Of a DNA stretch of 64,000 bases, positions 4,288 through 62,927 are shown piece after piece. The DNA comes from Arthrobacter echini (GTDB lineage: Bacteria > Actinomycetota > Actinomycetes > Actinomycetales > Micrococcaceae). The notes under the pieces were generated by a model. It had not been told where the DNA came from, made no database searches, and worked only from the letters and a program-made list of their open reading frames with translations. Where the stretch lies: contig NZ_SSWH01000010.1 in NCBI RefSeq assembly GCF_004803505.1, positions 1-64,000 of the forward strand. The letters run 5' to 3'. The position numbers and the translations under genes are program-made. Within the stretch, counting starts at the first letter, position 1, and every line of letters starts with the position of its first letter.

Positions 4288-6795
4288 ATGGTTCGACCTG
4301 AATGGCCTCGGACGTTCGGGCGCATTATTGTGAGTCGGCCGGTAACGGCTGGGTATGTGGTGTTGTTCTGGGTGGTGGGGTTGACGACGGGAAGTTTGTT
4401 GTCCGGGCCCGCCGAACCGTTGGCTTCCGCCGTCCGTCTCTCGGTAGACTCCGCGGTGTCGAGTCCCTGGACCATAGGAACAGCCCTGTTCTGGGCGGAC
4501 TCCCTCGGCGGATATCTGGTAGCGACCGTTTTGTTGATGCTGACGGGGTGGGCGTTTGAACGACGGATGGGAAGCGGCAGGTTCCTACTCGCTGCCCTGG
4601 CGGCACACGTCGTCGGAGTCTTTCTGACTGTTGGCTTCACCGGGCTGACGAGTGCCTTGGTCGGTGACTGGACGGCAGCCCTGGTATCCGAGTCCTTCGT
4701 GGGGGTGACGGGCCTGGTGTGTGGTGCTGCAGCCGCCGGATCGGCAGCGCTCGGAACCCTGTGGAGGCGGCGCCTGCGGGTCGGCCTGTTCACCGTTGTG
4801 GTCTTGCTGGCGCTGTTCAGCGGGACCTTCCAGGACATGCTTAACCTGTTCGCTGCGGTGGTCGGCGCGATCATCGGTCCTTGGCTGAAGGGCCGCCGTA
4901 TTCATCGGCCGCGTTTCGCCGTGAGCCGGAGGGAGGCGCGGGTCCTGATCGCGCTCCTGGTGGCGGCGTGTGCGGCCGGTCCGGTGATCGCCGCGCTGAA
5001 TACGCAGGCGGCGGGTCCGCTGGCTGTCCTCGAGTATCTGTTCACCGAGGTCCAGCCCACCGATCCGGCGACTGTCACCGCGGTGTGTGCGGATTCGGCG
5101 CAGGTGGAGGACTGCGCAGCCGCGAGGCTGCAATTGCGTGCCGGCGCAGGTGCGGTATTCATGGCTGTCCTGCCGTCGTTCCTCCTGGTGGTCCTCGCCG
5201 ACGGACTCCGCCGAGGTCGCAGATTCGCGTGGTGGGCGGCGCTGATCATCCAGACACTCGCAACGATCCGGGCGGCAGCAGAGGTTTTCTCGCTCTCTGC
5301 CGGTTCGTCAGGGATCGTCGGTCTGCCCTTGGTTGAAGCAGCGTACGCCGGCCGGCTCGTAAGCGTGGCCGTAGCGTTGATCGTGCCCTTGGTGGTGATC
5401 GTTGTCCTCCTGATGAGTAGATCTCTATTCACTGTTTCCGCCCCACCTGGCACTTACAGGCGGCTCGTCGTGGTGCTGGCTGTGGCAGGAATTATGTTGA
5501 GCGCGCTGTATGTGGTAATCGGTCTGTTGTTGAGTGACGGGTTCACTCCGGAGCCGGGATTCAGGCAGCTGTTGTTCGACGCGCCCGACCGTCTCCTCCC
5601 GCTGAGTCAGTTTCTTGAACAGGTTCCGGCGATCGTGCCGCAGAGCCCGGCTGCCGTGTTGCTCTACGAGGGTGTCGGCGTCGTGTTCTGGCTACTTGCC
5701 GCTGTCCTGATGATCCTGTCGTTCCTCCGTCCAGCTCATTACGGTGCCGGGACCGATGAGGACCGGGCCCGCGAGCTGTTGCACCTCCACGGTGGGAGCA
5801 CGCTGGGCTGGATGACGACCTGGCCCGGTAATTCGTACTGGTTCTCCTCCTCCGGGTCCAGCTACGTCGCCTTTCGGGTCCTGTCAGGGGTGGCACTGAC
5901 CCTCGGTGAGCCGGTTGGACCGCGTGAGGAGCTCGCGGCGACGATCGACGAGTTCAGCGAGTTCTGCTCGATGAACGGGTGGGCTCCGTGCCTGTACTCC
6001 GTGGGGGGCCGGGTCAGTGACCTGACCGACGCCACCGGGTGGAACAGCGTCCAAGTCGCGGAGGAGACGATCCTGCCGCTGGGCTCGATCGCCTTTACCG
6101 GTAAAAAGTTCCAGGACATCCGCACTGCTCTGAACAAGGCAGGGAAAGAGGGCATCCGGGCGGAGTGGGTGAGATATCCTTCTGCGCCACGAGCTGTGGT
6201 TGATCAGATCAACGCGATCTCCGAGGAGTGGGTGGCAGACAAAAGCATGCCGGAAATGGGGTTCACCCTTGGGTCGCTGGACCAGGTCGATGATCCGGAG
6301 GTGCGCTGTCTGATCGCCGTCGACGCTGATCGGACTGTTCACGCCGTGACCTCCTGGTTGCCGGTGTACGAAGATGGTCAAGTGGTCGGGTGGACCCTGG
6401 ACTTCATGCGCCGACGTGGGACAGGGTTCCGGGCCTCGATCGAGTTCCTGATCGCCTCGGCCGCCCTGACCCTCGAGCAGGAGGGATTCGGGTTCATCAG
6501 CCTCTCGGGGGCGCCGCTGGCGCGCCTTGATCCCACCGACTCCCCGGACGCGGTGAAGGTCCTCGACCGGGTTCTTGCCGGGCTGGGCGCCCTGCTCGAA
6601 CCGGTGTACGGCTTCAGATCCCTCCTGGCCTTCAAAGCCAAATTCCAACCGACATACGAGGCACTGCACATGGTGTATCCGGACGCTTCGGCGTTACCCG
6701 CGATAGCGAACGCCGTAGGCCGGGCCTATCTACCCGAAGTCTCCCTCGGACAGGGCCTGAACCTCGCCCGCAAGGTCCTGGTACGCAGCGCATGA
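4288..6795 (+). CDS. MprF-like aminoacyl-phosphatidylglycerol synthase/flippase
   Basis: 835-residue membrane enzyme. Residues 1-480 are mostly hydrophobic and form many membrane segments; 1-210 resembles a rhomboid-like block. From about 490 a soluble DUF2156 (LPG synthase C-terminal) domain follows: RELLHLHGGSTLGWMTTW, YVAFRVLSGVALTLGEPVG, KKFQDIRTALNKAGKEG, then WTLDFMRRRGTGFRASIEFL. This family transfers an amino acid from aminoacyl-tRNA to membrane lipid and so lowers the negative surface charge, giving resistance to cationic peptides. Which amino acid and lipid are used here cannot be read. The start ATG has GAGG about 8 nt upstream, and the stop overlaps the next ATG (ATGA), suggesting translational coupling. 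The gene begins only about 60 bp from IS debris. Confidence 0.85.
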   Translation: MVRPEWPRTFGRIIVSRPVTAGYVVLFWVVGLTTGSLLSGPAEPLASAVRLSVDSAVSSPWTIGTALFWADSLGGYLVATVLLMLTGWAFERRMGSGRFLLAALAAHVVGVFLTVGFTGLTSALVGDWTAALVSESFVGVTGLVCGAAAAGSAALGTLWRRRLRVGLFTVVVLLALFSGTFQDMLNLFAAVVGAIIGPWLKGRRIHRPRFAVSRREARVLIALLVAACAAGPVIAALNTQAAGPLAVLEYLFTEVQPTDPATVTAVCADSAQVEDCAAARLQLRAGAGAVFMAVLPSFLLVVLADGLRRGRRFAWWAALIIQTLATIRAAAEVFSLSAGSSGIVGLPLVEAAYAGRLVSVAVALIVPLVVIVVLLMSRSLFTVSAPPGTYRRLVVVLAVAGIMLSALYVVIGLLLSDGFTPEPGFRQLLFDAPDRLLPLSQFLEQVPAIVPQSPAAVLLYEGVGVVFWLLAAVLMILSFLRPAHYGAGTDEDRARELLHLHGGSTLGWMTTWPGNSYWFSSSGSSYVAFRVLSGVALTLGEPVGPREELAATIDEFSEFCSMNGWAPCLYSVGGRVSDLTDATGWNSVQVAEETILPLGSIAFTGKKFQDIRTALNKAGKEGIRAEWVRYPSAPRAVVDQINAISEEWVADKSMPEMGFTLGSLDQVDDPEVRCLIAVDADRTVHAVTSWLPVYEDGQVVGWTLDFMRRRGTGFRASIEFLIASAALTLEQEGFGFISLSGAPLARLDPTDSPDAVKVLDRVLAGLGALLEPVYGFRSLLAFKAKFQPTYEALHMVYPDASALPAIANAVGRAYLPEVSLGQGLNLARKVLVRSA

Positions 6796-48954: not shown

Positions 48955-50226
48955 ATGACAAATGACCTTATGGCACTGGATGTGTTCGGCGGCGTGGATA
49001 CTCACTCGCGAACTCATCATGTGGCAGTTGTTGATGGGCTCGGTCGGGAATTGGGAGATCGCGAATTTCCTGCAACGCCTGCTGGCTATGACGCACTGCA
49101 TTCGTGGTTGGTGGGCTTCGGTCAGCTCGTGCTCGTCGGGGTTGAGGGCACAGGCTCGTACGGGGCGGGCTTGATGCGTACGCTCACCAGGGCCGGCACG
49201 ATCGATGTCGCTGTTCCGAAGCTACGCTCTGGCACCTATTTCCCGGAGTGGTTGCTCGAGCGCCGCAAACGGGCCGAGACTGCGCTGATCACCGTCGTGG
49301 CGGACTGCTACCTCGCCGGCGGCAGCACCCGCCGGATGGACAAGCTCGTCAAAACCTTGGGCATCAACTCCCTGTCGAAGTCCCAGGTCTCCAGGATGGC
49401 GGCGGAGCTCGATGAGCAGGTCGATCAGTTCCGTCACCGCCCCCTCGGGGACGCCGGCCCGTTCACATTCGTTGCCGCGGACGCACTGACGATGAAGGTC
49501 CGCGAAGGCGGGCGGGTCATCAACGCCGTCATCCTGATTGCGACTGGCGTCAACGCCGACGGGCGCCGCGAAGTCCTCGGCCTACGCGTGGCGACCTCCG
49601 AGACCGGGTCCGCGTGGAACACGTTCTTCGCGGACCTCGTCGCACGCGGTCTGACCGGGGTCCGCCTGGTCACCTCGGACGCCCACCGCGGGCTGGTCGA
49701 GGCCATCAACGCGAACCTGCCCGGAGCTTCCTGGCAGCGCTGCCGCACCCACTACGCGGCGAACCTGATGTCGGTGACCCCGAAGAGCCTGTGGCCGGCC
49801 GTCAAAGCGATGCTGCACTCGGTGTATGACCAGCCCGACGCCGCTGCCGTGCACGCCCAGTTCGACCGGCTCCTGGACTACGTCCAGGACAAGCTCCCCG
49901 CCGCCCACGAACACCTCGATGGTGCCCGTGCGGACATCCTTGCCTTCACCGGCTTCCCCGAAGGGCTCTGGCAACAGATCTGGTCCAACAACCCCAACGA
50001 ACGACTCAACAGGGAGATCCGCCGTCGCACTGACAGCGTCGGGATCTTCCCCAACCGGGACGCGATCATCCGCCTCGTCGGGGCGGTCCTCGCCGAGCAA
50101 ACCGACGAATGGGCCGAAGGCCGCCGCTACCTCGGCCTCGACATCCTCGCCAAGAGCCGCCTCACCCTCGTACCCGACACCGGGAACGAGGTGACCGACC
50201 AGCCCGCCCTCGAACTCAGCGCCTAA
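48955..50226 (+). CDS. Chimeric transposase: IS110 N terminus fused to IS1081-like (IS256) catalytic part
   Basis: 423 residues in one uninterrupted frame. Residues 1-~80 are the IS110 RuvC-like start: GGVDTHSRTHHVAVVDGLGR (D15) and LVGVEGTGSYGAGLMRTLTR (E64). From about 82 it is an IS1081-type mutator transposase: TIDVAVPKLRSGTYFPEWLL, SRMAAELDEQVDQFRHRPL, FVAADALTMKVREGG (D175), LVTSDAHRGLVEAIN (D241) and IWSNNPNERLNREIRRRTD (E348). The complete DDE triad is present, but the normal IS1081 N-terminal DNA-binding part is missing. The join is near 49180-49205, where both parents can read ...GTIDV-like sequence. IS1081-like 3' flank (CGCTACACCACC...GACTTGACC) ends near 50281. Confidence 0.85.
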   Translation: MTNDLMALDVFGGVDTHSRTHHVAVVDGLGRELGDREFPATPAGYDALHSWLVGFGQLVLVGVEGTGSYGAGLMRTLTRAGTIDVAVPKLRSGTYFPEWLLERRKRAETALITVVADCYLAGGSTRRMDKLVKTLGINSLSKSQVSRMAAELDEQVDQFRHRPLGDAGPFTFVAADALTMKVREGGRVINAVILIATGVNADGRREVLGLRVATSETGSAWNTFFADLVARGLTGVRLVTSDAHRGLVEAINANLPGASWQRCRTHYAANLMSVTPKSLWPAVKAMLHSVYDQPDAAAVHAQFDRLLDYVQDKLPAAHEHLDGARADILAFTGFPEGLWQQIWSNNPNERLNREIRRRTDSVGIFPNRDAIIRLVGAVLAEQTDEWAEGRRYLGLDILAKSRLTLVPDTGNEVTDQPALELSA

Positions 50227-50281: not shown

Positions 50282-50455
50282 CATCTGCTGACCCGAAGTG
50301 AGGGAACCATCGGGGAACTCACCCGCCTGCTGACCGCTGCGGCGATCGCCGCCGTGGAAAGCGGAGAAGAATCAATCAACCGCCGCACGCTGAACTTGGC
50401 TGGCTATGACGGTCCCAGTGCCCGGCGCCAGAAGTTTGAACGTGATCTGAAGTGA
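50282..50455 (+). pseudogene. tniB: TniB (transposon ATPase) C-terminal fragment
   Basis: 57 codons, HLLTRSEGTIGELTRLLTAA through INRRTLNLAGYDGPSARRQK, the typical C terminus of Tn402/Tn5053/Tn552-type TniB. The ATPase domain is removed by the chimeric IS. The stop overlaps the tniQ GTG. Confidence 0.8.
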
Positions 50456-51678
50456 AGCCCACGCACTGGCCCCTCCACCCCGCTCCGGTCCAGGCCGAGG
50501 CTCTCTCCTCCTGGCTGCGCCGGCTCGCTAGCGCTTACGGAATGGAAGCCTCCGAACTACTGGCGCACGGGCTGGGTCACGGAAACCTTCAGGACCAGGA
50601 GCTCGACCATAATCCGCCAGCCACTCTGTTGACGGAACTAAGCCGGCGCAGCGGTGTCAGCCGAGACCGGGTGGCCGTAATGAGCATGATCGGCTGGACA
50701 CCATGGCTGTTCGACAGCATGAACCCGGATCCCGAGGCCTATCGCGCCTATGTCCACCAGTTCTCAGTGCTGCTGCCGCACAGACGACGCAAACTTCACG
50801 ATCCCGCTCAGTGGCTACCTTGGCTGCCAAAGCACAGGATTCACAAGGCCTGCCGTGAATGCCTGACATCTACCGAACCCGTGGCGCTTGTCCTTTTCTG
50901 GCAGCTGCCGCTCATGCTGAGCTGTCCGAGTCATCGCCGCCGCCTCGAAACCTACGCGGGCCAGGCGCCGGAATACCGGCGGTGGACCTTTGTTGCCGCT
51001 GCTCCATCGCAGGTATCGGACTCCGTCGCACTTATGGATCAGCGCACCTGGCAGGCGATAACGACAGGATCGGTCAACCTACCCCGGCGTCGTGTCCACG
51101 CAGGCATCTGGTTTCGGCTGCTGCGGACCCTTCTGGATGAGCTTTCGGCCGTCGAAGCACAATGTGGGCGGCGACAGCTGGAGGAGATCCGCCTTCTCTG
51201 GGAGCACTGTGGATACCCGTTCCGGGCCGGACTACTCCTCTGGCGCCCGTTCGAAAGTTTACCGTGGTCGATTCAACAGCAGCTACTCGAGGCCGCCGCC
51301 CTAGCCATGGAACACATCGAAACCGGCACGCTCACCGCGTCGGGAACCCTCGCTCACCTCCTGTCGCCCGAACCTGACCGCAGGATCAACGACGGAACCC
51401 CGCCGCGTCCTTCAGGAAGGCAGCCAGCTAGGAAACAGGCCAGCGCGCCAGCTGTGCGGGCTCTGGACGACCTGTGGAAACAAGCGGTCGATGCACAAGA
51501 GGCCGCCGTTAATGCAGCCAGAGGAAACTCCGCAAGCGCCCAGCAGCTCTACAACTTCGCACTGTACGGCCGCAGGACTGAACGATCCGTGCGCAGACTC
51601 CAGGACGACTTTGTCCAGCTTCAGATACCTACCGACTTCCTGTCGGACACTAACAAGGGCTGTGCAGACGAGTACTGA
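50452..51678 (+). CDS. tniQ: TniQ family transposition protein
   Basis: 408 residues, GTG start overlapping tniB. TniQ N-terminal domain: HWPLHPAPVQAEALSSWLRR and AYGMEASELL; zinc-binding pair CRECLTSTEP and LMLSCPSHRRRLE. The C-terminal half is helical and variable. TniQ assists target selection with TniB in Tn402/Tn5053-type transposons. Its last residues (CADEY) and stop are encoded by the first terminal repeat of the transposon, so the gene runs exactly into the element's end. Without tniA it is an orphan. Confidence 0.88.
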   Translation: MKPTHWPLHPAPVQAEALSSWLRRLASAYGMEASELLAHGLGHGNLQDQELDHNPPATLLTELSRRSGVSRDRVAVMSMIGWTPWLFDSMNPDPEAYRAYVHQFSVLLPHRRRKLHDPAQWLPWLPKHRIHKACRECLTSTEPVALVLFWQLPLMLSCPSHRRRLETYAGQAPEYRRWTFVAAAPSQVSDSVALMDQRTWQAITTGSVNLPRRRVHAGIWFRLLRTLLDELSAVEAQCGRRQLEEIRLLWEHCGYPFRAGLLLWRPFESLPWSIQQQLLEAAALAMEHIETGTLTASGTLAHLLSPEPDRRINDGTPPRPSGRQPARKQASAPAVRALDDLWKQAVDAQEAAVNAARGNSASAQQLYNFALYGRRTERSVRRLQDDFVQLQIPTDFLSDTNKGCADEY

Positions 51679-51708
51679 AATCTGTGCAGACGCGTACTGA
51701 AAATGACA
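51661..51708 (+). repeat. Tn402-type transposon right end (two TniA-site repeats)
   Basis: Two tandem units: TGTGCAGACGAGTACTGAAA and TGTGCAGACGCGTACTGAAA, ending in TGACA at 51708. This resembles the TGTCATTTTCAG... ends of Tn402/Tn5053 read in reverse. The first unit includes the tniQ stop codon. Confidence 0.8.
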
Positions 51709-51739: not shown

Positions 51740-52067
51740 GCGAGCCGCGTGTTTTCGGGGTTGTGCAGGCGAGTGTTGAGCACTGATTTTTCCGTACTCC
51801 TCTGCACAAATGTCGTTCTCGCTTACTACTCCTCTGCACAATAGGGAGGTAGCGGGGTGAATAGGGGAATCTGTACGTATTGGTGAGTCCGGCACGTTGA
51901 CCATTCCGAAGGTCACCTGTGATCGCGCCGTTGGCAACGCAGACGATCGTCGGCGGGCCTGAGGCTAATGTGGCTGCACCGTCCCACAGATCGTTCCCCT
52001 TCCTGTGACACGGGAGGGCTGTGCGGACGAGTACTGAAATTTGTGCAGACGTGTACTGAAAATGACA
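51714..52067. mobile_element. 354-bp non-autonomous unit with Tn402-like inverted repeats
   Basis: Begins TGTCATTTTCAGTACGCGTC and ends with the complement of TGTCATTTTCAGTACACGTC; the two 26-bp ends differ at one base. Extra copies of the TGTGCAG...TACT site lie at each side (about 51760-51840 and 52018-52045). It contains no complete gene. Five bases (gtttt) separate it from the tniQ element's end; the 5 bases after its other end are aactt, so no target duplication is seen. Confidence 0.7.
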
Positions 52068-52170
52068 AACTTCCGCTAGAACTCAAGATCCTGACTGTCT
52101 CGTAAAGTCGTCTCGCTGAAATGTGTCTCAGCGGCCGTGTCCTGAGGGCTTTGTGAGGCAGACTGTTGGA

Positions 52171-52764
52171 ATGAGGCAGCTTGGATACACCCGTGTGAGT
52201 ACATCGGCCCAGGATGCGAAGCTGCAGCTCGACGCTCTCGTCGCCTCCGGGGTGCAAAAGCGCGATGTTTTCGCTGATGTCACTTCGGGTAGCAGGACCG
52301 CGGTGGAGCGGCCCGGAATGAAGAAGCTCCTCGAGTACGCCAACGAAGGGGACACCGTGGTGGTGTGGCGCGTCGACCGGTTGGGTCGGTCCCTCATGGA
52401 TGTGCTGAACACGGTGAACCTGCTGCGCGAGCGGGGGGTCCTGGTCCGGTCCCTCTCGGATGGCATCGATCCGGAAACCTCGACGGGACGGCTGATGCTG
52501 AACATGATGGCCACCTTGGCGGAGTACGAGCGTGAACTCATCGTCGAGCGCGTCAATGCCGGCCTCGTTGCGGCCAGAGAGAACGGGACCCGCTTCGGCC
52601 GGCCACCATCGAACCCGAAGGTCATCGCCGCGAAGCTCGACGTCGTTACCGACGCCCGCAAGAAGGGAAAGACCGCAGCAGAAGCCGCGCACCTCGTCGG
52701 CTGGAGCCGCGCAACCCTGTACAGGCACCAGCAAACCCATGCTGGTCAAAGCCATGAGGGCTGA
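52171..52764 (+). CDS. Serine resolvase/invertase (TniR-like)
   Basis: 197 residues from MRQLGYTRVSTSAQDAKLQL, with the catalytic Ser in YTRVSTSAQD. Arg cluster in VVVWRVDRLGRSLMDV; long E helix (LMLNMMATLAEYERELIVER); C-terminal HTH (AAEAAHLVGWSRATLYRHQQ). A longer frame starts at 52123, but this ATG matches the family N terminus. The upstream ~100 bp has TGTCTCG/GTCTCG-type repeats that may form its res site. It probably belongs to the adjacent Tn402-type transposon. Confidence 0.9.
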   Translation: MRQLGYTRVSTSAQDAKLQLDALVASGVQKRDVFADVTSGSRTAVERPGMKKLLEYANEGDTVVVWRVDRLGRSLMDVLNTVNLLRERGVLVRSLSDGIDPETSTGRLMLNMMATLAEYERELIVERVNAGLVAARENGTRFGRPPSNPKVIAAKLDVVTDARKKGKTAAEAAHLVGWSRATLYRHQQTHAGQSHEG

Positions 52765-54038: not shown

Positions 54039-54983
54039 ATGCCTGTGAGCTCGATCCCGCGCCCCGCCGAGCTGGGCCACCGCGTCCGCAGCGCCTTCCG
54101 CGCCCGGGTCTCCGGTGACCCCACCGGGGCACCTGACTGGGTCCGCGACATCGCCCTGGTAGGGGAGGGACCAGGCTTGTTCGAACCCGATGGCGTCGTC
54201 TGGCAGGTCCACGGCGGCCTTTCCACTCTGGTCGGCGGCGTCGCGGCCCTCCTCGGCCAAGGCGCACACCCCCTCGCCATGGCCGGGGTCGCACGGCACT
54301 CCTCCTACCGCAGCGACCCCTGGGCCCGCCTCGCCGGGACCGCGCGCTGGCTCACCATTACCACCTTCGGCTCCGCGGAACTCGCCGAGCGGGACTCGTC
54401 ACGGGTCCGCCGCATGCACGGGCGGGTCCAAGGCACCACCGAGGACGGCCGCGCCTACTCCGCCTCCGACCCCGCACTGCTGCGCTGGGTGCACCTGGCC
54501 TTCACCGATGCCTTCCTCGGAGCCCACGAGGCCGTCGGCCACGACCTTGCCCCACGGTTCGGCCGCAACTGGGCTGATACCTACGTCGCCGACTGGTCCC
54601 GCAGCGCCCGGACCCTCGGAGCCGAAGACCTCCCGCTCAACCGCCAGGAACTCGCCGAGGCACTGCGCGCGCTTGAGCCTGACCTGGAACCCGTCCCCGC
54701 CGAGCTCCTGACGTTCCTCTCCGCACCGGACGGACTGAACCGGGCCGAGCGGATCTTCTACAGCGGCATCGCAAGCGCCGGAGCGTTGGTCATCTCTCCG
54801 TCCGTGGCTCCCCTCGCCGGGGTGCCCGGCCGCGGCGACCGCTCACTCGCAAACCGCCTCCGGTTGCAGCGCACCCGACTGCAGTTGCGGACCTTCCAGC
54901 TGGCCCTCGGACCACATAGCCCCTCCGTGGATGCGGCGCGCTACCGGCTCGGCCTCGCCGGCCCCCCGGACTGGCTCGACTAA
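54039..54983 (+). CDS. DUF2236 / MpaB-like oxygenase family protein
   Basis: 314 residues. All-helical heme-oxygenase-like DUF2236 (latex-clearing protein relatives): FEPDGVVWQVHGGLSTLVGG, AHPLAMAGVARHSSYRSDPW, RTARWLTITTFGS-type stretch, VRRMHGRVQGTTEDGRAYSA and LLRWVHLAFTDAFLGAHEAV with conserved His. Members contain a b-type heme and oxidise hydrophobic substrates in some cases; most are uncharacterised. The start has no strong ribosome site. Confidence 0.8.
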   Translation: MPVSSIPRPAELGHRVRSAFRARVSGDPTGAPDWVRDIALVGEGPGLFEPDGVVWQVHGGLSTLVGGVAALLGQGAHPLAMAGVARHSSYRSDPWARLAGTARWLTITTFGSAELAERDSSRVRRMHGRVQGTTEDGRAYSASDPALLRWVHLAFTDAFLGAHEAVGHDLAPRFGRNWADTYVADWSRSARTLGAEDLPLNRQELAEALRALEPDLEPVPAELLTFLSAPDGLNRAERIFYSGIASAGALVISPSVAPLAGVPGRGDRSLANRLRLQRTRLQLRTFQLALGPHSPSVDAARYRLGLAGPPDWLD

Positions 54984-55132
54984 ACCTCGGTCGCTGCTAC
55001 TGCCCCGACCACGCTCACTACGCGTGGCCGACGCCGATGAGTGAATGAGTATTTGAGTAAGAGGCGGTACCGATGGGTGCCGGCCCTTCATCGTTGCTGG
55101 GGTTCCCGGTCGGCGGCCGTCGTTGTCTTGCC
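54984..55132 (+). pseudogene. Remnant of a small Zn-ribbon gene upstream of leader A
   Basis: Positions about 54986-55045 read GRCYCPDHAHYAW, similar to the end of the intact small protein at 60795 (GRYYCPRHAHKA), which likewise precedes a leader copy. The 5' part is gone. Confidence 0.4.
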
Positions 55133-55509
55133 TGTAGTGCTTCCCTGTTCTCCGCCAGGGCTCCGAGCAGGGCAATGGTCCTGCGCTTCGCTCCGGCCTG
55201 ATGAGGTCCGGGCGCTCCTTCGTCGCACCCGACCCTGACGTTTTTGCTGCTGTCCTACGGATTGTGCGCCCCCGCTCCACAGCGTCAACCGGCTCCGCCG
55301 GCAGCGGGCACACCCATCCTGTCCGGCGCTCCTGCCTCGCTTATTTCCTCCCAGAAAGGGCGCACCCTTGCACCTACGGCGTTGAGCACTGCTCCGTCGG
55401 GAGCGAGCGAGCGAGCTCGCCAGCAGGCAAAAAACATGAGGGGAAGGGCAAGTACCAGCTGGCTCACCACAGGCCCTCACCCCACCTCGTGACCGAAGGA
55501 GCACCGATC
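55133..55509 (+). ncRNA. Conserved long 5' leader, copy A
   Basis: About 377 nt, diverged relative of the two identical leaders at 58737 and 61042. Shared blocks are the 5' hairpin (CCCTGTTC/GAGCAGGG), GCGCTTCGCTCCGGCCTG, TTTTTGCTGCTGTCCT, the hairpin CCGGC-TCC-GCCGG (55289-55301) and GCGAGCTCGCCAGCAGGC, then AAAAAAC and the ribosome site AAGGAG. Base changes at both hairpins keep pairing relative to the other copies. Whether it acts as RNA or as DNA is not proved. Confidence 0.6.
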
Positions 55510-55980
55510 ATGAACGCTGACTACATCACCACCGATACCGGCGAGGCCGTGGACGCCCCGACCCTGCCGTCCTACTGGGGACCCGATAATTGGCAGACTG
55601 AGGACGACGGATACGAATGGTTCCGTTGCCTGGACGGCACACCGTGGACCGTCGTCACCCGGTGGGGGACCGAAGGGCACCCGCTCGGAAACTTGTACTC
55701 GATGATGGTCGCTACCGCCGTTCACGAGGATGAGCGCGGCACCCTCTATGGGTACGGCAGCTACGCACAGGGTCGCACCTACGCTCTGTGGTTCCGCTGC
55801 GAGGCCGCATTGCACGCGGAGATCACCGAGACGGCGTTCTTCTTCTGGAAGGACGGTCAGAGCCAGGGACCGGAAAAGCTCCCAGCGACCGCCGGAGAGC
55901 TTCCCGCCGAGTACACGGTGCCCTACCAGGCACCGGCACCGGTCAAGGACACGCCACGAGCAGACGGCGCACCCTTCTAG
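55510..55980 (+). CDS. Plasmid hypothetical protein downstream of leader A
   Basis: 156 residues, AAGGAG nine bases before the ATG. Aromatic-rich: LPSYWGPDNWQTEDDGYEWF, LYGYGSYAQGRTYALWFRCE, ETAFFFWKDGQS. No family recognised; predicted soluble with mixed alpha/beta. The frame is open upstream through the leader, but that part is not conserved as protein between leader copies. Followed by a hairpin terminator. Confidence 0.6.
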   Translation: MNADYITTDTGEAVDAPTLPSYWGPDNWQTEDDGYEWFRCLDGTPWTVVTRWGTEGHPLGNLYSMMVATAVHEDERGTLYGYGSYAQGRTYALWFRCEAALHAEITETAFFFWKDGQSQGPEKLPATAGELPAEYTVPYQAPAPVKDTPRADGAPF

Positions 55981-56005
55981 CTGGCAGGCCGGCACCGGTG
56001 GCCGT

Positions 56006-56038
56006 GTGTGCCCTGTCCCTTACACGGGTAGGGCACAC
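56006..56038 (+). terminator. Hairpin after the leader-A gene
   Basis: Stem GTGTGCCCT (56006-56014) with AGGGCACAC (56030-56038), 15-nt loop, no T-tract. Confidence 0.5.
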
Positions 56039-56117
56039 GCCCCACCACCTGCCAGAACAGCCGTAGAAGAGCAGGAAACAGCACTAAGAAACATTGAATA
56101 GACGCGGTAGAAGCCTG

Positions 56118-56135
56118 TTTATTCAGATGAATAAA
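56118..56135. promoter_or_regulatory. 18-bp AT-rich palindrome upstream of nrdH-like gene
   Basis: TTTATTCA-GA-TGAATAAA, 75 bp before the ATG of the NrdH-like gene, in an otherwise GC-rich region. Possible operator or promoter core. Confidence 0.5.
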
Positions 56136-56209
56136 AGCTAGAATTGTTAGTAGCAGCGCAGCAGTCGACTCCCACTAGAACCCGCCACGTAACCCAAGGA
56201 CTGAGAGCT

Positions 56210-56467
56210 ATGACCGTCACCGTCTTCGAGAAGCCAACGGGATGCTTCGGATGCAAGAAGACCAAGGAACTGTTCGACGCCGCTGGCGTCGAGTTCGTGG
56301 CCGTGGACATCACCACCGATGACCAGGCCCTGACCTATATCACCGAGGAACTCGGGTACAGCCAGGCGCCGGTCGTGGTGTACGAGAAGGACGGCAGCGA
56401 AGACCACTGGTCCGGACTGAACCCGGCCAAGATCGCCCAGGTCATCGCCCTCGACACCACGCCATAG
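56210..56467 (+). CDS. NrdH-like glutaredoxin
   Basis: 85 residues, MTVTVFEKPTGCFGCKKTKE: thioredoxin-fold redoxin with active site CFGC near the N terminus (family usual CVQC), then AGVEFVAVDITTDDQAL and GYSQAPVVVYEKDGSEDHWS GLNP, the NrdH-type end. It would reduce ribonucleotide reductase or another plasmid-encoded partner. No nrdEF gene in the window. Plasmid copies of such redoxins are common in actinobacteria. Confidence 0.88.
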   Translation: MTVTVFEKPTGCFGCKKTKELFDAAGVEFVAVDITTDDQALTYITEELGYSQAPVVVYEKDGSEDHWSGLNPAKIAQVIALDTTP

Positions 56468-56537
56468 CCCACTCACTCATCTACTCATTCACTCATCGCT
56501 GGCAGCAGCGCACCCATAGAGAAGGCAGTTGAGCATC

Positions 56538-57077
56538 ATGGCCGGAGACACCATCATCACCGTCGTCGGGAACCTCACCGCGGATCCCGAACTCCGCTTC
56601 ACCCCCTCCGGGGCAGCGGTCGCGAACTTCACGATCGCCTCCACCCCGCGGACCTTCGACCGGCAGGCCAATGACTGGAAGGACGGAGACACCCTGTTCC
56701 TGCGCGCCTCGATCTGGCGTGAGGCGGCCGAGAATATCGCCGAGACCCTCACCAAGGGCACCCGCGTCGTCGCCCAGGGCCGGCTGAAGTCCCGCAGCTA
56801 CGACACCAAGGAAGGCGAGAAGCGCACCGTCATGGAACTCGAGGTCGACGAGGTCGGACCGAGCCTGCGCTACGCATCCGCGAAAGTCACCCGCACCCAG
56901 CGCAACAACAACGCCAGCGGCACCGGGGGAGGGAACAACCAGGGCGGGGGCGGCCAGTCCCGGGACCAGGCATGGCAGTCACAGCAGCCTGCCGATGATC
57001 CCTGGGCAGCCCCAGCGAACACCGGGACCAACGCCGGCGGGTGGGGCAACGGCCCCGACACCGAACCACCGTTCTAA
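56538..57077 (+). CDS. ssb: Single-stranded DNA-binding protein
   Basis: 179 residues from [22 protein letters not shown]-fold 1-112: [37 protein letters not shown] and [20 protein letters not shown]. Gly/Gln/Asn-rich linker ([13 protein letters not shown]) and acidic tip DTEPPF for partner binding (normally DDIPF). Plasmid SSB supports replication or conjugation. The ATG rather than a TTG three codons upstream fits the family start. Confidence 0.95.
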
Positions 57078-57102
57078 ACACTGCGCATCCACGGCGTCAC
57101 GC

Positions 57103-57127
57103 GTGGCCGCCCCAGAAGGGCGGCCAC
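57103..57127 (+). terminator. Hairpin after ssb
   Basis: Perfect 10-bp stem GTGGCCGCCC (57103-57112) with 57118-57127, loop of 5 nt, no T-tract. Confidence 0.6.
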
Positions 57128-57171
57128 CTGCGGGCCCCACACCAGGATCGTGGAACACACAAACTACAAGC

Positions 57172-57199
57172 GTAGTAGTATTACTAGTACTATTACTAC
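57172..57199. promoter_or_regulatory. Palindromic operator upstream of the KfrA-like gene
   Basis: 28-bp dyad centred on ACTAGT (57183-57188) with outer GTAGTA (57172-57177) and TACTAC (57194-57199); 12 of 14 half-positions pair. It ends 23 bp before the ATG. KfrA proteins repress their own promoter through such sites. Confidence 0.7.
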
Positions 57200-57222
57200 T
57201 ACTACGGCTTTAGGGGTCATCA

Positions 57223-57867
57223 ATGACTGAAGAGCTTGTTCCTACCGGACCATCAGCGGGGGTTGGTCCTGTTGACGCGGGGGCTCCGGTGAAGGAGCGG
57301 GTGTATGCAGCGGCGGAGACGATCAGTGCCGAACGCAATCCGACGGTCTCCAGTGTTCGGGAAGCCGCCGGGGTCAGCAACGCGGACGCGACCCGGTACC
57401 TGAGGGAGTGGCGTGAGGAGAAAGCAGCCGCGGGTTCGCGCATCGTGGCCACGCCGCAGGCAGTGCTGGAACAGGCCGCGAGACTGGCCGGCTCTGTCTG
57501 GGCCGACGCCGTGGCCCTGGCCACGGAGCAGCACGCCGCCGTGGAAGCCCAATGGGCCAGGGACAGCCAGGACAAGGACACCGAACTGGCCGAACTCGTC
57601 GCGGACCTGGACAAGGTCACCACCGAGCACACCACCGAGACCGCGGGATTGCGGGCCGAGCTCGTAGCAGCCACCGATCGAGCCGGCGCCGCTGAGTCCA
57701 GGGCAACCCAGGCAGAGGAAGCAGCCGCTACCTCTAACGCCGAGATCAGCACCCTCACCCGTGACCTCGCCGCAGCCCAGACACGCGCCGAGACCCTGCA
57801 GCACGCCCACGACGCCCTGATCCAACGCATCACCCCGGAGAACACGGCACAACAACCACGCCAGTAA
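57223..57867 (+). CDS. KfrA-like plasmid DNA-binding coiled-coil protein
   Basis: 214 residues; AGGGG about 6 nt before the ATG. N-terminal DNA-binding domain of KfrA_N type (KERVYAAAETISAERNPTVS; VREAAGVSNADATRYLREWR), then a long alpha-helical coiled coil from about 75 to 205 (ELVADLDKVTTEHTTETAGL; SNAEISTLTRDLAAAQTRAE). KfrA proteins autoregulate and aid stable plasmid inheritance by forming filaments or scaffolds. The dyad directly upstream supports autoregulation. Confidence 0.82.
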   Translation: MTEELVPTGPSAGVGPVDAGAPVKERVYAAAETISAERNPTVSSVREAAGVSNADATRYLREWREEKAAAGSRIVATPQAVLEQAARLAGSVWADAVALATEQHAAVEAQWARDSQDKDTELAELVADLDKVTTEHTTETAGLRAELVAATDRAGAAESRATQAEEAAATSNAEISTLTRDLAAAQTRAETLQHAHDALIQRITPENTAQQPRQ

Positions 57868-57931
57868 CCCATAGTGTGAACGCGCAGAACCTCCACAAAG
57901 AGCAGGGCCAAGGCAACCGTCAGGAGCAACC

Positions 57932-58360
57932 ATGACCCACATCTCGAATGATCACTACAAGGCATCCCTGGTGTTCGCTGCGGCCGCCCGGGAGCTGGAG
58001 ACCTCAGCCAGACATCACACCGACCCGACCCAGAGCACCGAGGCGATCCGGGAACTCCACGGCGCGCACGAGCACATCGTGCAAGCATTGAAGCGCTTGC
58101 ACGACTGGCACACCGCTGCACGCCCAGGTGAAGAGTATGAGGCCGGGGACCAGGAGAGCGCCCGGGCGCTGGGGGAGACCGCGGCCGAGCTCGCCGCCGC
58201 GGCAACAGCCGCCCAGGCCGTGGTCGGCGCCCTGCACCGGGCGCAGCAGGCCAGCTCACGGGTCCGGTACATTGAACGCCCCGCACAGCCGGCGGAGGCC
58301 AGTAGTGCCTCCAGTGCCGGCAGTGGTGGCGGTGATGGTGTGTCTGGCGGTAGGGGATGA
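57932..58360 (+). CDS. Hypothetical helical plasmid protein
   Basis: 142 residues, MTHISNDHYKASLVFAAAAR, almost entirely alpha-helical and Ala/Glu/His-rich (ELHGAHEHIVQALKRLHDWH; ETAAELAAAATAAQAVVGAL), with a Ser/Gly-rich tail. No family recognised. Its stop overlaps the next gene by 4 bp (ATGA), so it is co-expressed with the small RHH-like protein and probably with the KfrA-like gene 64 bp upstream. Confidence 0.6.
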   Translation: MTHISNDHYKASLVFAAAARELETSARHHTDPTQSTEAIRELHGAHEHIVQALKRLHDWHTAARPGEEYEAGDQESARALGETAAELAAAATAAQAVVGALHRAQQASSRVRYIERPAQPAEASSASSAGSGGGDGVSGGRG

Positions 58361-58614
58361 GTAAGCGGAAACCGGCGTCGTTCACGCCGTACTTCACCCA
58401 GGCCGACGCGGACCAGGTCAGGGCCGCGTTCCTGGCCACAGGGCAGGCAGAGGGCCACCGGTCTGTGACAGACTTGATCGAGGCGGCTGTGCTGCGTGAA
58501 GTGAAGCGCTTGCAGCGCAAGCACAACCAGGGCAGGCAGTGGGACCCGGTACCACCGGGGGAGCTGCGCCCAGGCCGACGGACTCTCGCAGAAGAGAAGA
58601 ACCGGGCCCCATAG
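58357..58614 (+). CDS. Small partition-type DNA-binding protein (RHH-like, ParB-C type)
   Basis: 85 residues: KPASFTPYFTQADADQVRAA, FLATGQAEGHRSVTDLIEAA, VLREVKRLQRKHNQGRQWDP, VPPGELRPGRRTLAEEKN. Resembles the C-terminal centromere-binding domain of small actinobacterial plasmid ParB proteins (beta-alpha-alpha with R-S-x-T-D-L-I-E-A-A-V-x-R-E-V). No ParA ATPase gene is in the window, so its partner is unknown. Confidence 0.6.
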   Translation: MSKRKPASFTPYFTQADADQVRAAFLATGQAEGHRSVTDLIEAAVLREVKRLQRKHNQGRQWDPVPPGELRPGRRTLAEEKNRAP

Positions 58615-58651
58615 ATTTCCCTTGTTGTGGGAAAGTGCAAGACAGCAGTAC

Positions 58652-58685
58652 GGAAGCGGGAGCTGGTGGTGCAGCTCCCGCTTCC
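58652..58685 (+). terminator. Hairpin upstream of leader B
   Basis: Perfect 13-bp stem GGAAGCGGGAGCT (58652-58664) with 58673-58685, 8-nt loop. It closes the kfrA-like operon just before the leader. Confidence 0.6.
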
Positions 58686-58736
58686 ACCATTTAAGCCACC
58701 GGTTCCGCCCGGGTCGGCGCCTGTGGGTGTCTTACC

Positions 58737-59108
58737 TTGTAGTGTTTCCCTGCTCTGCGCTGGCGCTCCGAGCAGGGCTGTGGTCCTGCGCTTCGCTCCG
58801 GCCTGTGATGGCCCCGGTCACTCCTTCGTCGCGCCCGGGTCCAGATGTTTTTTGCTGCTGTCCTTCGGATTATCCGTCCCCGCTCCACACCGTCAATCGG
58901 CTGCGCCGACAGCACCGGCCAGAAACCTCTACGGCGCTCCTACGTCGCTTACTTCCTCCGAGATTTCTCACCGGCCCTGCCCTACGGGTTGACAGTGCTC
59001 CGTCGGGAACGAGCGAGCGAGCTCGCCAGCAGGCAAAAAACGCACGGGGAAGGGATCCACTGCTGGTCACCAAGGGTCCCGACGCCACCACAACAAAGGA
59101 GCACAACC
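58737..59108 (+). ncRNA. Conserved long 5' leader, copy B
   Basis: 372 nt identical, base for base as far as I checked, to 61042-61413. It starts TTGTAGTGTTTCCCTGC and ends in the ribosome site AAAGGAGCACAACC directly before the DUF4192 ATG. Hairpins: CCCTGCTC (58748-58755) with GAGCAGGG (58770-58777); TCGGC-TGC-GCCGA (58897-58909); self-complementary GCGAGCTCGC. The ATG follows at once here, but two bases later in copy C, so the same leader is joined to its gene in different frames: it is not coding. Confidence 0.7.
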
Positions 59109-60194
59109 ATGAACGAGAACCAGCCTTTCAAGGTCACGACCACCGCTGACATCCTCGCCTACGTCCCGCGCACGCTCGGCTTCCAGCCGCGCGAGTCCCT
59201 CGCCGTTATCACCATGCGCGGGAAGCAGCTTTCCCTGAGCCTCCGGGTGGACCTCCCGGCCGAGACCGCCACCCCGGCCGACTACGCGCAGGGCATCATG
59301 GACTACATCCTCGCCGACACCGCCGCCGACGGCGCCCTGATCTTCGTCTACACCGACGAGGTAGCCGACGCAGCCAAGACCGGCACCAACCACTACGCCA
59401 AGCCCTACATGGCCCATGTGCAGGCCCTCGAAACCGAGATGGAACGCGCAGGCTGGCAGGTACGCGGCGGCTGGCTGATCACCAATCTCGGCTGGATGCC
59501 GTTCTTCTGCGAAGAAGAAGGGTGCTGCATCCTGCAGCAGCACGAAGAGATCCGCGACAGTGCCCTGAACGCGCACATGGTCGTTACCGGGCACACCGTG
59601 GATGAGGACCCGGCCCGGTCCCTGATCGACCCGGCGTTCATCGGCAGCGACACCGCGCACACCACGATCGAGAATGCAGCGTACTGGCTGAACCGGCTGG
59701 ACCCGCAGGACTTCACCCACCCGGCCATGAGCGAAGCCCGCGCCGCGTGGTCGTCGGCGCTGGGCACCACGCCCACCGAGGCCGAGGCATGCGAGTTGGT
59801 GGCATACCTGAAGAACCCGGCGATCCGTGACCGTATCCTCGTGGACATCCTCAGCACCACCGACGACCACGGCGCATTCCTCCAGATCATCGCCGGACGG
59901 TACGAGAGCACCCCGGACTGGAGCCGCGTCGAAGCCATGCAGACCCTGCTGGCGCATCTCCTGCCCTACACCCCGACCGAGGACCGGGCACCGCTGTTCA
60001 CGCTCCTGGGCTGGATCACCTGGCACCAAGGATCATCCTCCATCGCCACCGCCTACATGGAGAAGGCACTCGACATCAGTTCGCAGTACCGGCTGGCACG
60101 GCTGATGAAGGAACTCATCCGCAGGGGAGGCGTGCCACTGACAGCGATGAACGAGCGCACCAGCTACGGCGCGTACTGGAGGAACAAGCACTAA
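59109..60194 (+). CDS. DUF4192 family plasmid protein
   Basis: 361 residues: VTTTADILAYVPRTLGFQPR, ESLAVITMRGKQLSLSLRVD, then DGALIFVYTDEVADAA, WLITNLGWMPFFCEEEGCCI, and the helical C-terminal half with WITWHQGSSSIATAYMEKAL, the DUF4192 signature W-x-x-W-x-x-G. Widespread in actinobacterial chromosomes and plasmids, function unknown. Preceded by leader B. Confidence 0.88.
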   Translation: MNENQPFKVTTTADILAYVPRTLGFQPRESLAVITMRGKQLSLSLRVDLPAETATPADYAQGIMDYILADTAADGALIFVYTDEVADAAKTGTNHYAKPYMAHVQALETEMERAGWQVRGGWLITNLGWMPFFCEEEGCCILQQHEEIRDSALNAHMVVTGHTVDEDPARSLIDPAFIGSDTAHTTIENAAYWLNRLDPQDFTHPAMSEARAAWSSALGTTPTEAEACELVAYLKNPAIRDRILVDILSTTDDHGAFLQIIAGRYESTPDWSRVEAMQTLLAHLLPYTPTEDRAPLFTLLGWITWHQGSSSIATAYMEKALDISSQYRLARLMKELIRRGGVPLTAMNERTSYGAYWRNKH

Positions 60195-60550
60195 CCCGCT
60201 AGGACACCCCTAGCAGCACAGGCCGGGCCGGACACCCACCCCCACGGGAGTCCGGCCCTCTCTGCCGTCCCACCCCGAACACAGACACACGCGCACGAAC
60301 ACACAGGCACAGACGAGCAAGTAAGCGCGCATTCTCGCCCAGGTGAGCGGGCGGCGGCCTCCGCCGCACGCTCCCCCGGCCGCCGCCAGACACGCTGACG
60401 CGACCACACCACACAGCCACGAGCTACACCTGCCTGCCGGCCCCCGAGCAGGCAGGCGCACACGCAGGAGAGCAAGCAGGACGATACACCGCGAAGTGAC
60501 AGGACCAGCACGTACAGTGAACCCACTCCATCAACCAGGAAGAGATAATC
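60195..60550. other. Intergenic region after the DUF4192 gene
   Basis: 356 bp. A hairpin at 60225-60258 (GGGCCGGAC/GTCCGGCCC) probably ends the upstream transcript. The rest is GC-rich with short CA-rich tracts (acacacgcgcacg); no gene supported. Confidence 0.45.
60225..60258 (+). terminator. Hairpin after the DUF4192 gene
   Basis: 9-bp stem GGGCCGGAC (60225-60233) with GTCCGGCCC (60250-60258), no T-tract. Confidence 0.5.
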
Positions 60551-60784
60551 ATGGGACCCGTGGACTTCATCGAACACCCCGCACCACTCCTGGCCATGAG
60601 CCCGGGCCTCGAGGCGAGCATGCAGCTGCACCTACCCGAACTCCAGGCCCCCGGCCTCGAGGACATCCTCGAGGACCGACTCGAGGCCGGCAACCCCTCC
60701 ACGAACGGGACCACCGGGCACAGCTTCGGCCCCGTCGACGTCGCCGGCCCCTCCGAAGCGGCTCAGCGCTTCTTCGAGGACTAA
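60551..60784 (+). CDS. Small acidic plasmid protein (77 aa)
   Basis: 77 residues, MGPVDFIEHPAPLLAMSPGL to SEAAQRFFED; AGGAAG about 9 nt before the ATG supports translation. Acidic and Pro/Leu-rich, no family recognised. The next small gene begins 10 bp after its stop. Confidence 0.5.
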   Translation: MGPVDFIEHPAPLLAMSPGLEASMQLHLPELQAPGLEDILEDRLEAGNPSTNGTTGHSFGPVDVAGPSEAAQRFFED

Positions 60785-60794
60785 CCCCGGCCCG

Positions 60795-60980
60795 GTGGCA
60801 CCCCGAACGCCACGCGCACCGCAGACGCCGGGAACCCCTGCCCTGGCTCAATGCTGGATCTGCCGTGCCACCACGAAGATCCTCGATGAGAGCAGGCCCC
60901 TACCCGAGGGCTGGCTGTACCGGATGATCACCGTCGACGTCGGCCGCTACTACTGCCCCCGCCACGCACATAAAGCCTGA
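60795..60980 (+). CDS. Small zinc-ribbon-like protein (61 aa)
   Basis: 61 residues, GTG start. Two Cys/His pairs, CWICR and YYCPRHAH, separated by about 33 residues suggest a zinc ribbon. A remnant of a relative precedes leader A (54986-55045). Translation start uncertain. Confidence 0.5.
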   Translation: MAPRTPRAPQTPGTPALAQCWICRATTKILDESRPLPEGWLYRMITVDVGRYYCPRHAHKA

Positions 60981-61041
60981 CCAACCAGAACCCACCACGC
61001 AGTCAGCTCCGTGCGTGTTGTGATCCGTTGCCGGCTGGCGG

Positions 61042-61413
61042 TTGTAGTGTTTCCCTGCTCTGCGCTGGCGCTCCGAGCAGGGCTGTGGTCCTGCGCTTCG
61101 CTCCGGCCTGTGATGGCCCCGGTCACTCCTTCGTCGCGCCCGGGTCCAGATGTTTTTTGCTGCTGTCCTTCGGATTATCCGTCCCCGCTCCACACCGTCA
61201 ATCGGCTGCGCCGACAGCACCGGCCAGAAACCTCTACGGCGCTCCTACGTCGCTTACTTCCTCCGAGATTTCTCACCGGCCCTGCCCTACGGGTTGACAG
61301 TGCTCCGTCGGGAACGAGCGAGCGAGCTCGCCAGCAGGCAAAAAACGCACGGGGAAGGGATCCACTGCTGGTCACCAAGGGTCCCGACGCCACCACAACA
61401 AAGGAGCACAACC
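61042..61413 (+). ncRNA. Conserved long 5' leader, copy C
   Basis: Second exact copy of the 372-nt leader (offset 2305 from copy B), here followed by two extra C residues and the ATG of the ParB-like gene. The reading frame of the leader stays open into the gene, but in another phase than in copy B, so an N-terminal extension is not real protein. Confidence 0.7.
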
Positions 61414-61415
61414 CC

Positions 61416-62927
61416 ATGTCTGTTCTGGAACAGATCAATCCCGCCACCCTGACCATCGACGCGAACGTGCGCGCCGAAGCGCAGCTCGACAAGGCGTTCC
61501 TGTCCTCCGTCAAGGAGCACGGAGTCATTCAGCCCGTCGTTGCTCACCGCATCGAGGACGGCACCGTGCACGTCCTGTACGGGCAGCGGCGTACCCTCGC
61601 CGCTGTGGAGAACAACCTCGATACCATCCCGGTGTACGTGGTCGATTCCCTCACCGAAGCCGACCGGCTCGCCAAGCAGATCGTGGAGAACGACCAGCGC
61701 CGCGAACTGACGGACAACGACCGGGCCGAAGCCTTCCACCAGCTGTCCCTGCTCGGTGTATCGGCAACACAGATCGCCCGCAAAACCGGGGCGAAGAAGA
61801 CCGTCGTGGACGCGGCCCTGAAAGTCCGTTCCGACGACACCGCGACCGCGTTCCTCGCCGCAGGGATGACGCTGGACATGGCCGCAGTGATCGAGGAATT
61901 CGCCGGAGACACCGAAGCAATCGAGAAGCTGGAAGCCGCTGCGAAGCAGGCCCCGCAGAGCTTCGACCACACCGCCCAGCGCCTCCGCGACGACCGGAAG
62001 CGGGAGGCAGCGATAGCGGCAGCCAAGGCCGAGGCCGAAGCCGCAGGGTTGGCGATCATCGAGGATTCAGCATTCACGCACTACGACTACAAGGGTCCGA
62101 TTGCTGACATCACCGACCTGCGCACCGCCACGGGGGAGCGGCTGACGGCCGAGGACGCGAACGCCGCCTACGTCCGGTCAACCTACTCAGGAGTCGCGAC
62201 CGCTTACGTCAACACCGATTGGAAGGCAGCAGGGCTCACCAAGCCCGGAGCGCCGCGTGCCGGGAAGATGACCGAGGAAGAGAAAGCCGAACGCCGGACC
62301 GTGATCGAGAACAACAAGGCATGGGACGCCGCTGAGGTGGTGCGCATCGAGTTCGTGAAGGGACTGCTCAAAGCCAAGACCGCGCCGAAGAACGCGCTGC
62401 GGTTCGTCGTGCAGGCCATGGCCTCCCACTCCTACACCGTGGCGAAGGGACTGAACGACGAGAGCGACTTCGCCGCCGAACTGCTCACCGGCAAGGCGAC
62501 GGAGACTCGTTTCGGTGGGAGCCGGGAACTGGTGAAGATCGCCAGCCGCCCGACCGCACGGCATGAAACGAATATCCTCGCCATGGTTCTCGCCGGTTTC
62601 GAGAAGGGCACCTATCGCCAGTCATGGCGCGACGGTGGGGCCTCCACGAAGTTCTACCTGACCCAGCTCGCCACGTGGGGATACAACCTCAGCGACGTGG
62701 AACGCCTGATCACTCACCCAGCCCCCAAGGTTGCACCCGAAGCCGCACCCGAAGAAGCTCCTGCCCCCGAGGACGCGCCCGAGGACGGCACGAGTGAACC
62801 AGACACCGAGCAGGCCGACACCGAGGACATCTACCCCGCCGACGAAGCGGAGGAAGCCGAAGCCTTCGAGGACATCCGAGAAATGGAAGAGGGGATGATC
62901 GCGGAAGAGTACGCGGCCGCCGAGTAG
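61416..62927 (+). CDS. ParB/RepB-type nuclease-domain protein
   Basis: 503 residues. N-terminal ParB_N domain: INPATLTIDANVRAEAQLDK; LSSVKEHGVIQPVVAHRIED; VHVLYGQRRTLAAVENNLDT (the G-x-R-R motif); then the HTH (LLGVSATQIARKTGAKKTVV). A middle region of about 300 residues is unlike chromosomal ParB; the C-terminal 70 are very acidic (PEEAPAPEDAPEDG). Such proteins are common on actinobacterial plasmids, with roles in partition or anti-restriction. ATG chosen with AAAGGAG upstream, after leader C. Confidence 0.88.
   Translation: MSVLEQINPATLTIDANVRAEAQLDKAFLSSVKEHGVIQPVVAHRIEDGTVHVLYGQRRTLAAVENNLDTIPVYVVDSLTEADRLAKQIVENDQRRELTDNDRAEAFHQLSLLGVSATQIARKTGAKKTVVDAALKVRSDDTATAFLAAGMTLDMAAVIEEFAGDTEAIEKLEAAAKQAPQSFDHTAQRLRDDRKREAAIAAAKAEAEAAGLAIIEDSAFTHYDYKGPIADITDLRTATGERLTAEDANAAYVRSTYSGVATAYVNTDWKAAGLTKPGAPRAGKMTEEEKAERRTVIENNKAWDAAEVVRIEFVKGLLKAKTAPKNALRFVVQAMASHSYTVAKGLNDESDFAAELLTGKATETRFGGSRELVKIASRPTARHETNILAMVLAGFEKGTYRQSWRDGGASTKFYLTQLATWGYNLSDVERLITHPAPKVAPEAAPEEAPAPEDAPEDGTSEPDTEQADTEDIYPADEAEEAEAFEDIREMEEGMIAEEYAAAE

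Follow-up and report, generated by a model that had tools for sequence, protein, structure and literature searches.

Single-stranded-DNA (ssDNA) promoters, which are active only during plasmid entry, are familiar to date chiefly from plasmids of E. coli, F among them. The Frpo elements of F (Frpo1 and Frpo2) are described as repeated leaders, a few hundred nucleotides (nt) long, that stand within the leading region ahead of ssb and other entry genes, with a predicted stem-loop in the transferred strand that carries -10 and -35 boxes. The ssi/Frpo-like repeats of ColIb-P9 (IncI1) are described as single-stranded promoters upstream of several operons, and in the Gram-positive conjugative plasmids of the Bacillus pLS20 family the EGeRS1 leaders are conserved, highly structured sequences of 400-600 base pairs (bp) upstream of establishment genes (for this comparison literature see PMC11541004, PMC9849209, PMC7690428, PMC8708921, PMC12826799, PMC10494377 and PMC6305408, as far as their relevant passages go; Masai & Arai 1997, Bates 1999 and Nasim 2004 are known to us through citation). 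Here we describe a repeated leader in Arthrobacter echini, three copies of which precede unrelated plasmid genes within the first 64,000 nt of contig NZ_SSWH01000010.1 (this whole stretch is the window; the contig spans 122,794 bp). We consider it likely that these leaders are ssDNA promoters of the plasmid's conjugative leading region, and that they are probably an equivalent, in actinobacteria, of the Frpo/ssi promoters carried by F and ColIb-P9, with no sequence similarity found between them.

How does the Arthrobacter leader compare with these systems? It shares with Frpo, as the latter is described, its repetition, its length, its place in the leading region ahead of ssb and entry genes, and a predicted stem-loop with promoter boxes. 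The differences are that the Frpo boxes have been described as double-stranded, whereas here the -35 is predicted to be paired and the -10 mostly open, and that the present element belongs to a different phylum, precedes DUF4192, DprA and ParB-like genes, and is known from its sequence and predicted fold. The copy here called B had no match in 20,395 E. coli records (E 0.01, distant mode), a set in which F-type plasmids are assumed to be present and which stands in for a direct comparison with Frpo sequences. The likeness to ColIb-P9, whose host is again of a different phylum, is one of description; the likeness to EGeRS1, which extends to a G+C content above that of the plasmid itself, is likewise one of description. 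The original prediction, made from the DNA sequence alone, had professed not to recognise the element, which was fair; yet such repeats were already in print. Mihasan & Brandsch (2016) are cited for conserved repeats on 12 plasmids of Arthrobacter that lie 5' of Duf4192, DprA and ParB and very likely are the leaders described here, and the citing passages tie them to partitioning or conjugation and to common descent, with no fold, promoter or single-strand reading in those passages. The repeats have been noted before, and the single-strand promoter mechanism appears to be new: in the open-access literature we found no paper that reads the Arthrobacter repeats as single-stranded promoters, nor any actinobacterial ssDNA promoter. 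Homologues of Frpo are reported for 6,006 elements by a survey of leading regions whose main text does not contain the word stem 'actino'.

A leader family ahead of unrelated plasmid genes

All three leaders read in the sense direction on the plus strand. As the original prediction had it, copy B (58737-59108) is identical over exactly 372 nt to 61042-61413 of copy C (61042-61415); we find the bases on either side to differ. The diverged third copy, placed by that prediction at 55133-55509, is our copy A (55126-55509), matched at 55126-55504 with 78% identity. Each leader ends in a ribosome site, AGGAGCA, followed by an ATG at 55510, 59109 or 61416, and the three plus-strand genes that begin there are indeed unrelated: copy A precedes a gene for a protein of 156 amino acids (aa; 55510-55980) that matches no Pfam or NCBIfam family, copy B a DUF4192 gene (59109-60194; E 1e-35), and copy C a ParB-like gene (61416-62927; ParB_N, E 1e-9). 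Because copy C carries two extra bases (61414-61415) before its ATG, leaders B and C meet their genes in different frames, and the block is not accounted for by a conserved reading frame; a coding extension is ruled out by these frames, and no protein family accounts for the leader. A search of the window against Rfam, a comparison that had been called for at the outset, gave no match at gathering score.

The observation of repeated leaders is confirmed far beyond chance, because 37 plasmid records match, the covariation described below is strong, and a covariance model of the core recurs in 139 of 395 Micrococcaceae genomes. By BLASTN, 27 plasmid records match copy B and 31 match copy A, 21 of them in common, and all 37 distinct records come from Arthrobacter, Pseudarthrobacter, Paenarthrobacter or Citricoccus. 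We examined 16 of these plasmids closely, hand-picked for spread, and an iterated nhmmer search of them and of the A. echini contig gave 58 hits or pieces, which within each locus lie on one strand only; 14 of the 16 plasmids carry at least three matches. Six partial or misaligned sequences among the 52 longer hits were dropped, and the other 46, taken as full length, end at a start codon preceded by a purine-rich, ribosome-site-like run (judged by eye). Forty-five leaders were aligned, copy C being omitted because it is identical to B. The model, which we call R1, was built from 28 core sequences on the antisense strand, and up to six candidates were scored per genome. Among the 150 matches listed in Micrococcaceae, 39 contigs have at least two copies, and in 39 of 39 these share a strand. 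Of 396 genomes from the order, the model matches 22, and 11 of these belong to six other families and score more weakly; across the phylum 7 of 396 match, the A. echini genome among them and the other six weak.

What do the leaders precede? Gene assignment covered 50 genes behind leaders, from the window and from stretches of the 16 plasmids, with the reference proteins counted in. Forty-four fall into four unrelated families, namely homologues of the 156-aa protein (13), DUF4192 (12), ParB-like (12) and DprA (7), and the remaining six include two cut by the end of the locus. Thus homologues of the 156-aa protein recur behind the same leader on other plasmids; in genome contigs only two relatives were found. 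Genes for SSB (single-strand DNA-binding protein) and glutaredoxin lie within several leader arrays. In 8 of the 11 genomes from other families the element stands upstream, directly or with one gene between, of ParB-like, glutaredoxin, SSB, DUF3560, M78-peptidase-like, primase-like (DNAG_N, Toprim) and unknown genes, as named with Pfam applied to some of them only. Near leader arrays we also note genes for an umuD/Y-family polymerase (L007, L015, L019), a DNA ligase (L006, L007, L019) and an SOS-peptidase (L007, L009).

A covarying fold and an antisense promoter

The folding core occupies 55241-55434 in copy A, 58849-59040 in copy B and 61154-61345 in copy C and is read on the minus strand, the presumed transferred strand; in copy B its closing stem, P1, pairs 58849-58860 with 59027-59040. 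The paired base changes between A and B/C described in the original prediction are present, and covariation, which it proposed to check, came out clearly above background in 28 distinct cores aligned by sequence with a 46-pair structure: 95.7% of cells are paired against 84.0% in shuffles, double changes occur in 23 pairs against 15.2 expected, and there are 130 double-change cells against 39.3 ± 4.9, where the structure was derived from this same alignment, which favours the measure of cells paired, and the sequences are related. None of 500 shuffles attains any of the five fold measures, and moving the partners by 1-3 columns lowers pairing to 38-50%. An alignment mixed with reverse-strand self-matches was not used for counts. 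Across 24 non-redundant leaders the consensus energy of the core lies 12.9 to 14.5 standard deviations below that of column-shuffled alignments on both strands. Just upstream of the core, many copies (e.g., L009, about 4610-4675) carry CGTCGCAGA ... TCTACGACG, a terminator-like pairing followed by a sense-strand T-tract, which by eye is absent from the copies in the window.

On which strand does the leader fold? The antisense fold of the core beats the sense fold beyond composition: under DNA parameters none of 60 column shuffles attains the difference, and under RNA parameters one of 60 does. The DNA fold of copy B (58846-59045) reaches -48.5 kcal/mol (z -3.96) on the minus strand and -39.2 kcal/mol (z -2.65) on the plus strand, and among single sequences the antisense fold is lower in 43 to 45 of 45.

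The antisense strand of the 45 aligned leaders carries a sigma70-type promoter of about the form TNGACG-N16-TANAAT. In the -10 element the second, fifth and sixth bases, A-11 and T-7 included, are invariant (45/45) and the first is T in 37 of 45; in the -35 element the G is invariant (45/45) and the T is present in 44; and the spacer measures 16 nt in 43 of the 45. On the minus strand of copy B the hexamer TTGACG (58891-58896) lies inside a conserved duplex, and GATAAT (58869-58874), 16 nt away, is predicted to be mostly unpaired at the junction of two stems. The equivalent elements are TTGACG (55283-55288) and CACAAT (55261-55266) in copy A, together spanning 55261-55288, and 61196-61201 and 61174-61179 in copy C, spanning 61174-61201, all on the minus strand. 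A generic promoter scan of 54900-61500 found three sites, which are the antisense promoters of the three leaders, all on the minus strand (0.6 ± 0.6 in shuffles), and no promoter-like site on the sense strand. For the 16 cores that match weakly, the mean of the best promoter score on the antisense strand is 7.19 out of 12, compared with 5.12 ± 0.38 for shuffles, whose largest mean is 6.12.

By prediction and covariation, the folded single strand would rebuild these boxes. In 28 DNA folds the mean unpaired fraction is 0.18 in the -35, 0.32 in the spacer and 0.66 in the -10, against 0.34 overall, and the second base of the -35 covaries with its partner (columns 55-182; TA 16, AT 5, CG 2, unpaired 5). 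On duplex DNA the antisense -35/-10 pair would be read in the direction leading off the gene. Folding of the single strand would turn the opposite arm, which is continuous with the template of the gene, into template itself, so that transcription would enter the gene.

Relaxase geometry and the reading of the leaders

The region transferred first is the leading region, and the relaxase gene typically lies on the lagging side (PMC11541004, in the passages that treat this layout). On the A. echini contig a MOBF relaxase domain (TrwC, E 9e-82, in a 1605-aa frame) begins at 64377 on the plus strand, 377 bp beyond the window, downstream on the leader strand and in the position predicted beforehand from the named plasmids. 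Likewise, the relaxase is on the leader strand in all 16 of the plasmids (5 MOBF, 11 MOBP), and a TrwC search of 16 further genomes gave six positives, three of which (G665, G217 and G079) have it on the leader contig, always on the same strand; G665 belongs to another family. Relaxase and leader thus share a strand in 20 of 20 replicons checked, MOBF and MOBP, and in 18 of the 20 the relaxase lies downstream, about 3 to 26 kb from the nearest leader as calculated on circular records, the distance being larger in W05 and W13. One reversed match, in W15, echoes a strong match on the other strand. By this geometry, with the lagging-side rule taken from the literature, the leader arrays lie within the conjugative leading region.

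The two relaxase types differ in what precedes them. The exact pattern TAAN6AGCTTGCTCCG occurs once in each of the 11 MOBP plasmids and in none of the five MOBF plasmids; it precedes the relaxase domain by roughly 610-735 bp and lies on the strand opposite the leaders (e.g., W06:C1:73122-73141); the backward control of the pattern gave a single hit, in W10. The AGCTTGCTCCG motif so located lies between leaders and relaxase in all 11, and in five aligned plasmids a variable inverted repeat precedes the motif, as judged by eye. We regard the pattern as a candidate core of the origin of transfer (oriT) of the MOBP plasmids. An inverted repeat usually stands 5' of nic on the transferred strand, and if this rule holds here, the transferred strand of the MOBP plasmids would be the template strand of the leaders. 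Before the MOBF relaxase lies a conserved block (63957-64224, mostly past the window), also present on three other plasmids, in which GTGGATAAC/GTTATCCAC recur as inverted repeats that resemble DnaA boxes; the block may be oriT or a replication origin (oriV), and it gave no reading of the nicked strand. Two further MOBF plasmids gave no match to this block.

We propose the following mechanism. During conjugation, the strand antisense to the leader genes would enter the recipient first and fold, so that its two arms pair and the -35 becomes double-stranded. The -10 (TANAAT), flanked by two stems, is predicted to stay mostly unpaired, as in a transcription bubble built in advance. Host RNA polymerase could then bind, use the opposite arm as template and transcribe into the gene, and the ParB-like, DprA, DUF4192, SSB and related entry proteins would be made before the second strand. 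Once the plasmid is double-stranded, the hairpin would be lost, the -35/-10 pair would aim away from the gene, and the genes would fall silent, their expression in the recipient being transient.

A number of observations weigh against this proposal. The pairing-based evidence on strand is supportive and not strong, because the strand difference over the whole leader lies within the null (attained by 5 of 60 and 10 of 60 shuffles), the antisense advantage of single sequences is largely compositional (mean z -1.0 over 20 cores against shuffles), and the wobble bias is unclear: a strand-neutral count gives 124 against 123 over the whole leader and 36 G.T against 29 A.C in the core, and the 69 against 29 wobble cells obtained in the core by symmetric helix extension owe their gain to two pairs only. 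The CCCTGTTC/GAGCAGGG change of copy A is a G-T pair on the sense strand and hence an antisense mismatch, and in the fold of copy A itself the -10 is not open (0.34) and the -35 is partly paired (0.36). The commonest -35, TAGACG (26/45), agrees with the consensus at four of six positions. Among the 16 weak cores, the promoter score of five (L061, both L081 copies, L064 and one L022 copy) is attained by more than 35% of shuffles, and only eight of the 16 have their best site at the homologous position; one weak leader match, in W02, is reversed. Finally, in Bacillus pLS20 similar leaders lie on the wrong strand for the mechanism; the authors of the pLS20 work judged ssDNA promoters highly unlikely there, having seen no promoter and the nicked strand being the non-template one.

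Could the leader act instead as RNA, as duplex DNA or as a priming site? The original prediction had suggested a structured RNA or multi-site DNA element, and the element is, as it said, non-coding, multi-copy and structured, with compensatory changes, upstream of unrelated plasmid genes. A structured RNA is not our first choice, because it is on the antisense strand that the core fold shows the better conservation, and because the near-invariant antisense promoter aims at the gene only once the strand folds. A leader in the mRNA, with its promoter lying farther upstream and its fold controlling translation or termination, would account for the covariation, for the good conservation of the sense core (z -13.0 and -12.9 against column shuffles) and for the ends right at start codons; it would leave the invariant boxes on the other strand unexplained, against a stronger antisense core fold, a sense strand without a promoter-like site in the region scanned, and the lack of an Rfam match. 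We consider it unlikely. Still less probable is an ordinary duplex promoter that fires away from the gene to give an antisense or small RNA. The minus-strand boxes would serve well as such, yet neither the link to start codons nor the covariation of the upstream arm with the promoter, -35 included, would follow. It is this combination of an inverted promoter and a covarying partner arm that neither a duplex promoter nor an mRNA leader explains.

A duplex partition or regulatory site, with parS-like repeats bound by the ParB-like protein, would fit the presence of ParB-like genes behind about a quarter of the leaders; such a site could do without covarying stems nested over 200 nt and without a set spacing from the start codon, and we consider it very improbable. 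The alternative to be taken most seriously is a single-strand origin or initiation site (sso/ssi), at which the hairpins let RNA polymerase or primase prime the complementary strand and gene expression is secondary. It follows the same strand logic, Frpo gave RNA primers in vitro according to the review that describes it, and a primase-like gene (DNAG_N, Toprim) is the second gene downstream of a diverged copy (L083). The number of matches per plasmid, mostly three or more, and the fusion of the copies to start codons go beyond what priming needs, and we regard priming as a possible though lesser explanation, one that is compatible with an ssDNA promoter.

Taking the leaders as ssDNA promoters, we further favour, with some reserve, a view of them as a separate family without detected similarity to Frpo, present on Micrococcales plasmids with two unrelated relaxase types. 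Its prebuilt bubble (duplex -35, -10 in an open loop, duplex downstream) would drive a conserved entry programme, consisting of ParB-like, DprA, DUF4192, SSB/NrdH and an unknown 143-aa protein, for only as long as the plasmid stays single-stranded. If so, to judge from searches of the open-access literature, no promoter of this sort would have been described before from Gram-positive bacteria, and the making of early proteins from the incoming single strand would not be peculiar to F-like plasmids, having arisen at least once more in another phylum. Furthermore, R1 or the antisense TNGACG-N16-TANAAT could serve as a simple marker of actinobacterial leading regions, and hence of anti-defence and entry genes, and the functions of DUF4192, plasmid DprA and the 143-aa family could be tested directly, using a soil bacterium that harbours a conjugative plasmid.

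Neighbouring genes and repeats in the window

The array that follows leader A continues on the plus strand with a glutaredoxin-family (NrdH-like) gene (56210-56467), an SSB frame (56529-57077; PF00436, E 1e-29) and, by domain search, a KfrA_N-domain protein (57223-57867). A 43-nt inverted repeat (55022-55064 and 56469-56511, 77% complementary, with GAGTGAATGAGT-like stretches) brackets leader A, its gene and the glutaredoxin gene. Further upstream, a single 423-aa frame (48955-50226) reads by eye like two transposases joined, the start being of the IS110 type and the main part of the IS256 type. Finally, we note two 53-nt repeats (51656-51708 and 52015-52067, 94% alike) with internal subrepeats, which adjoin a TniQ-like frame (50452-51678) and a resolvase-like frame (52123-52764), both named by eye, and the whole looks, again by eye, like the end of a Tn402/Tn5053-like transposon.

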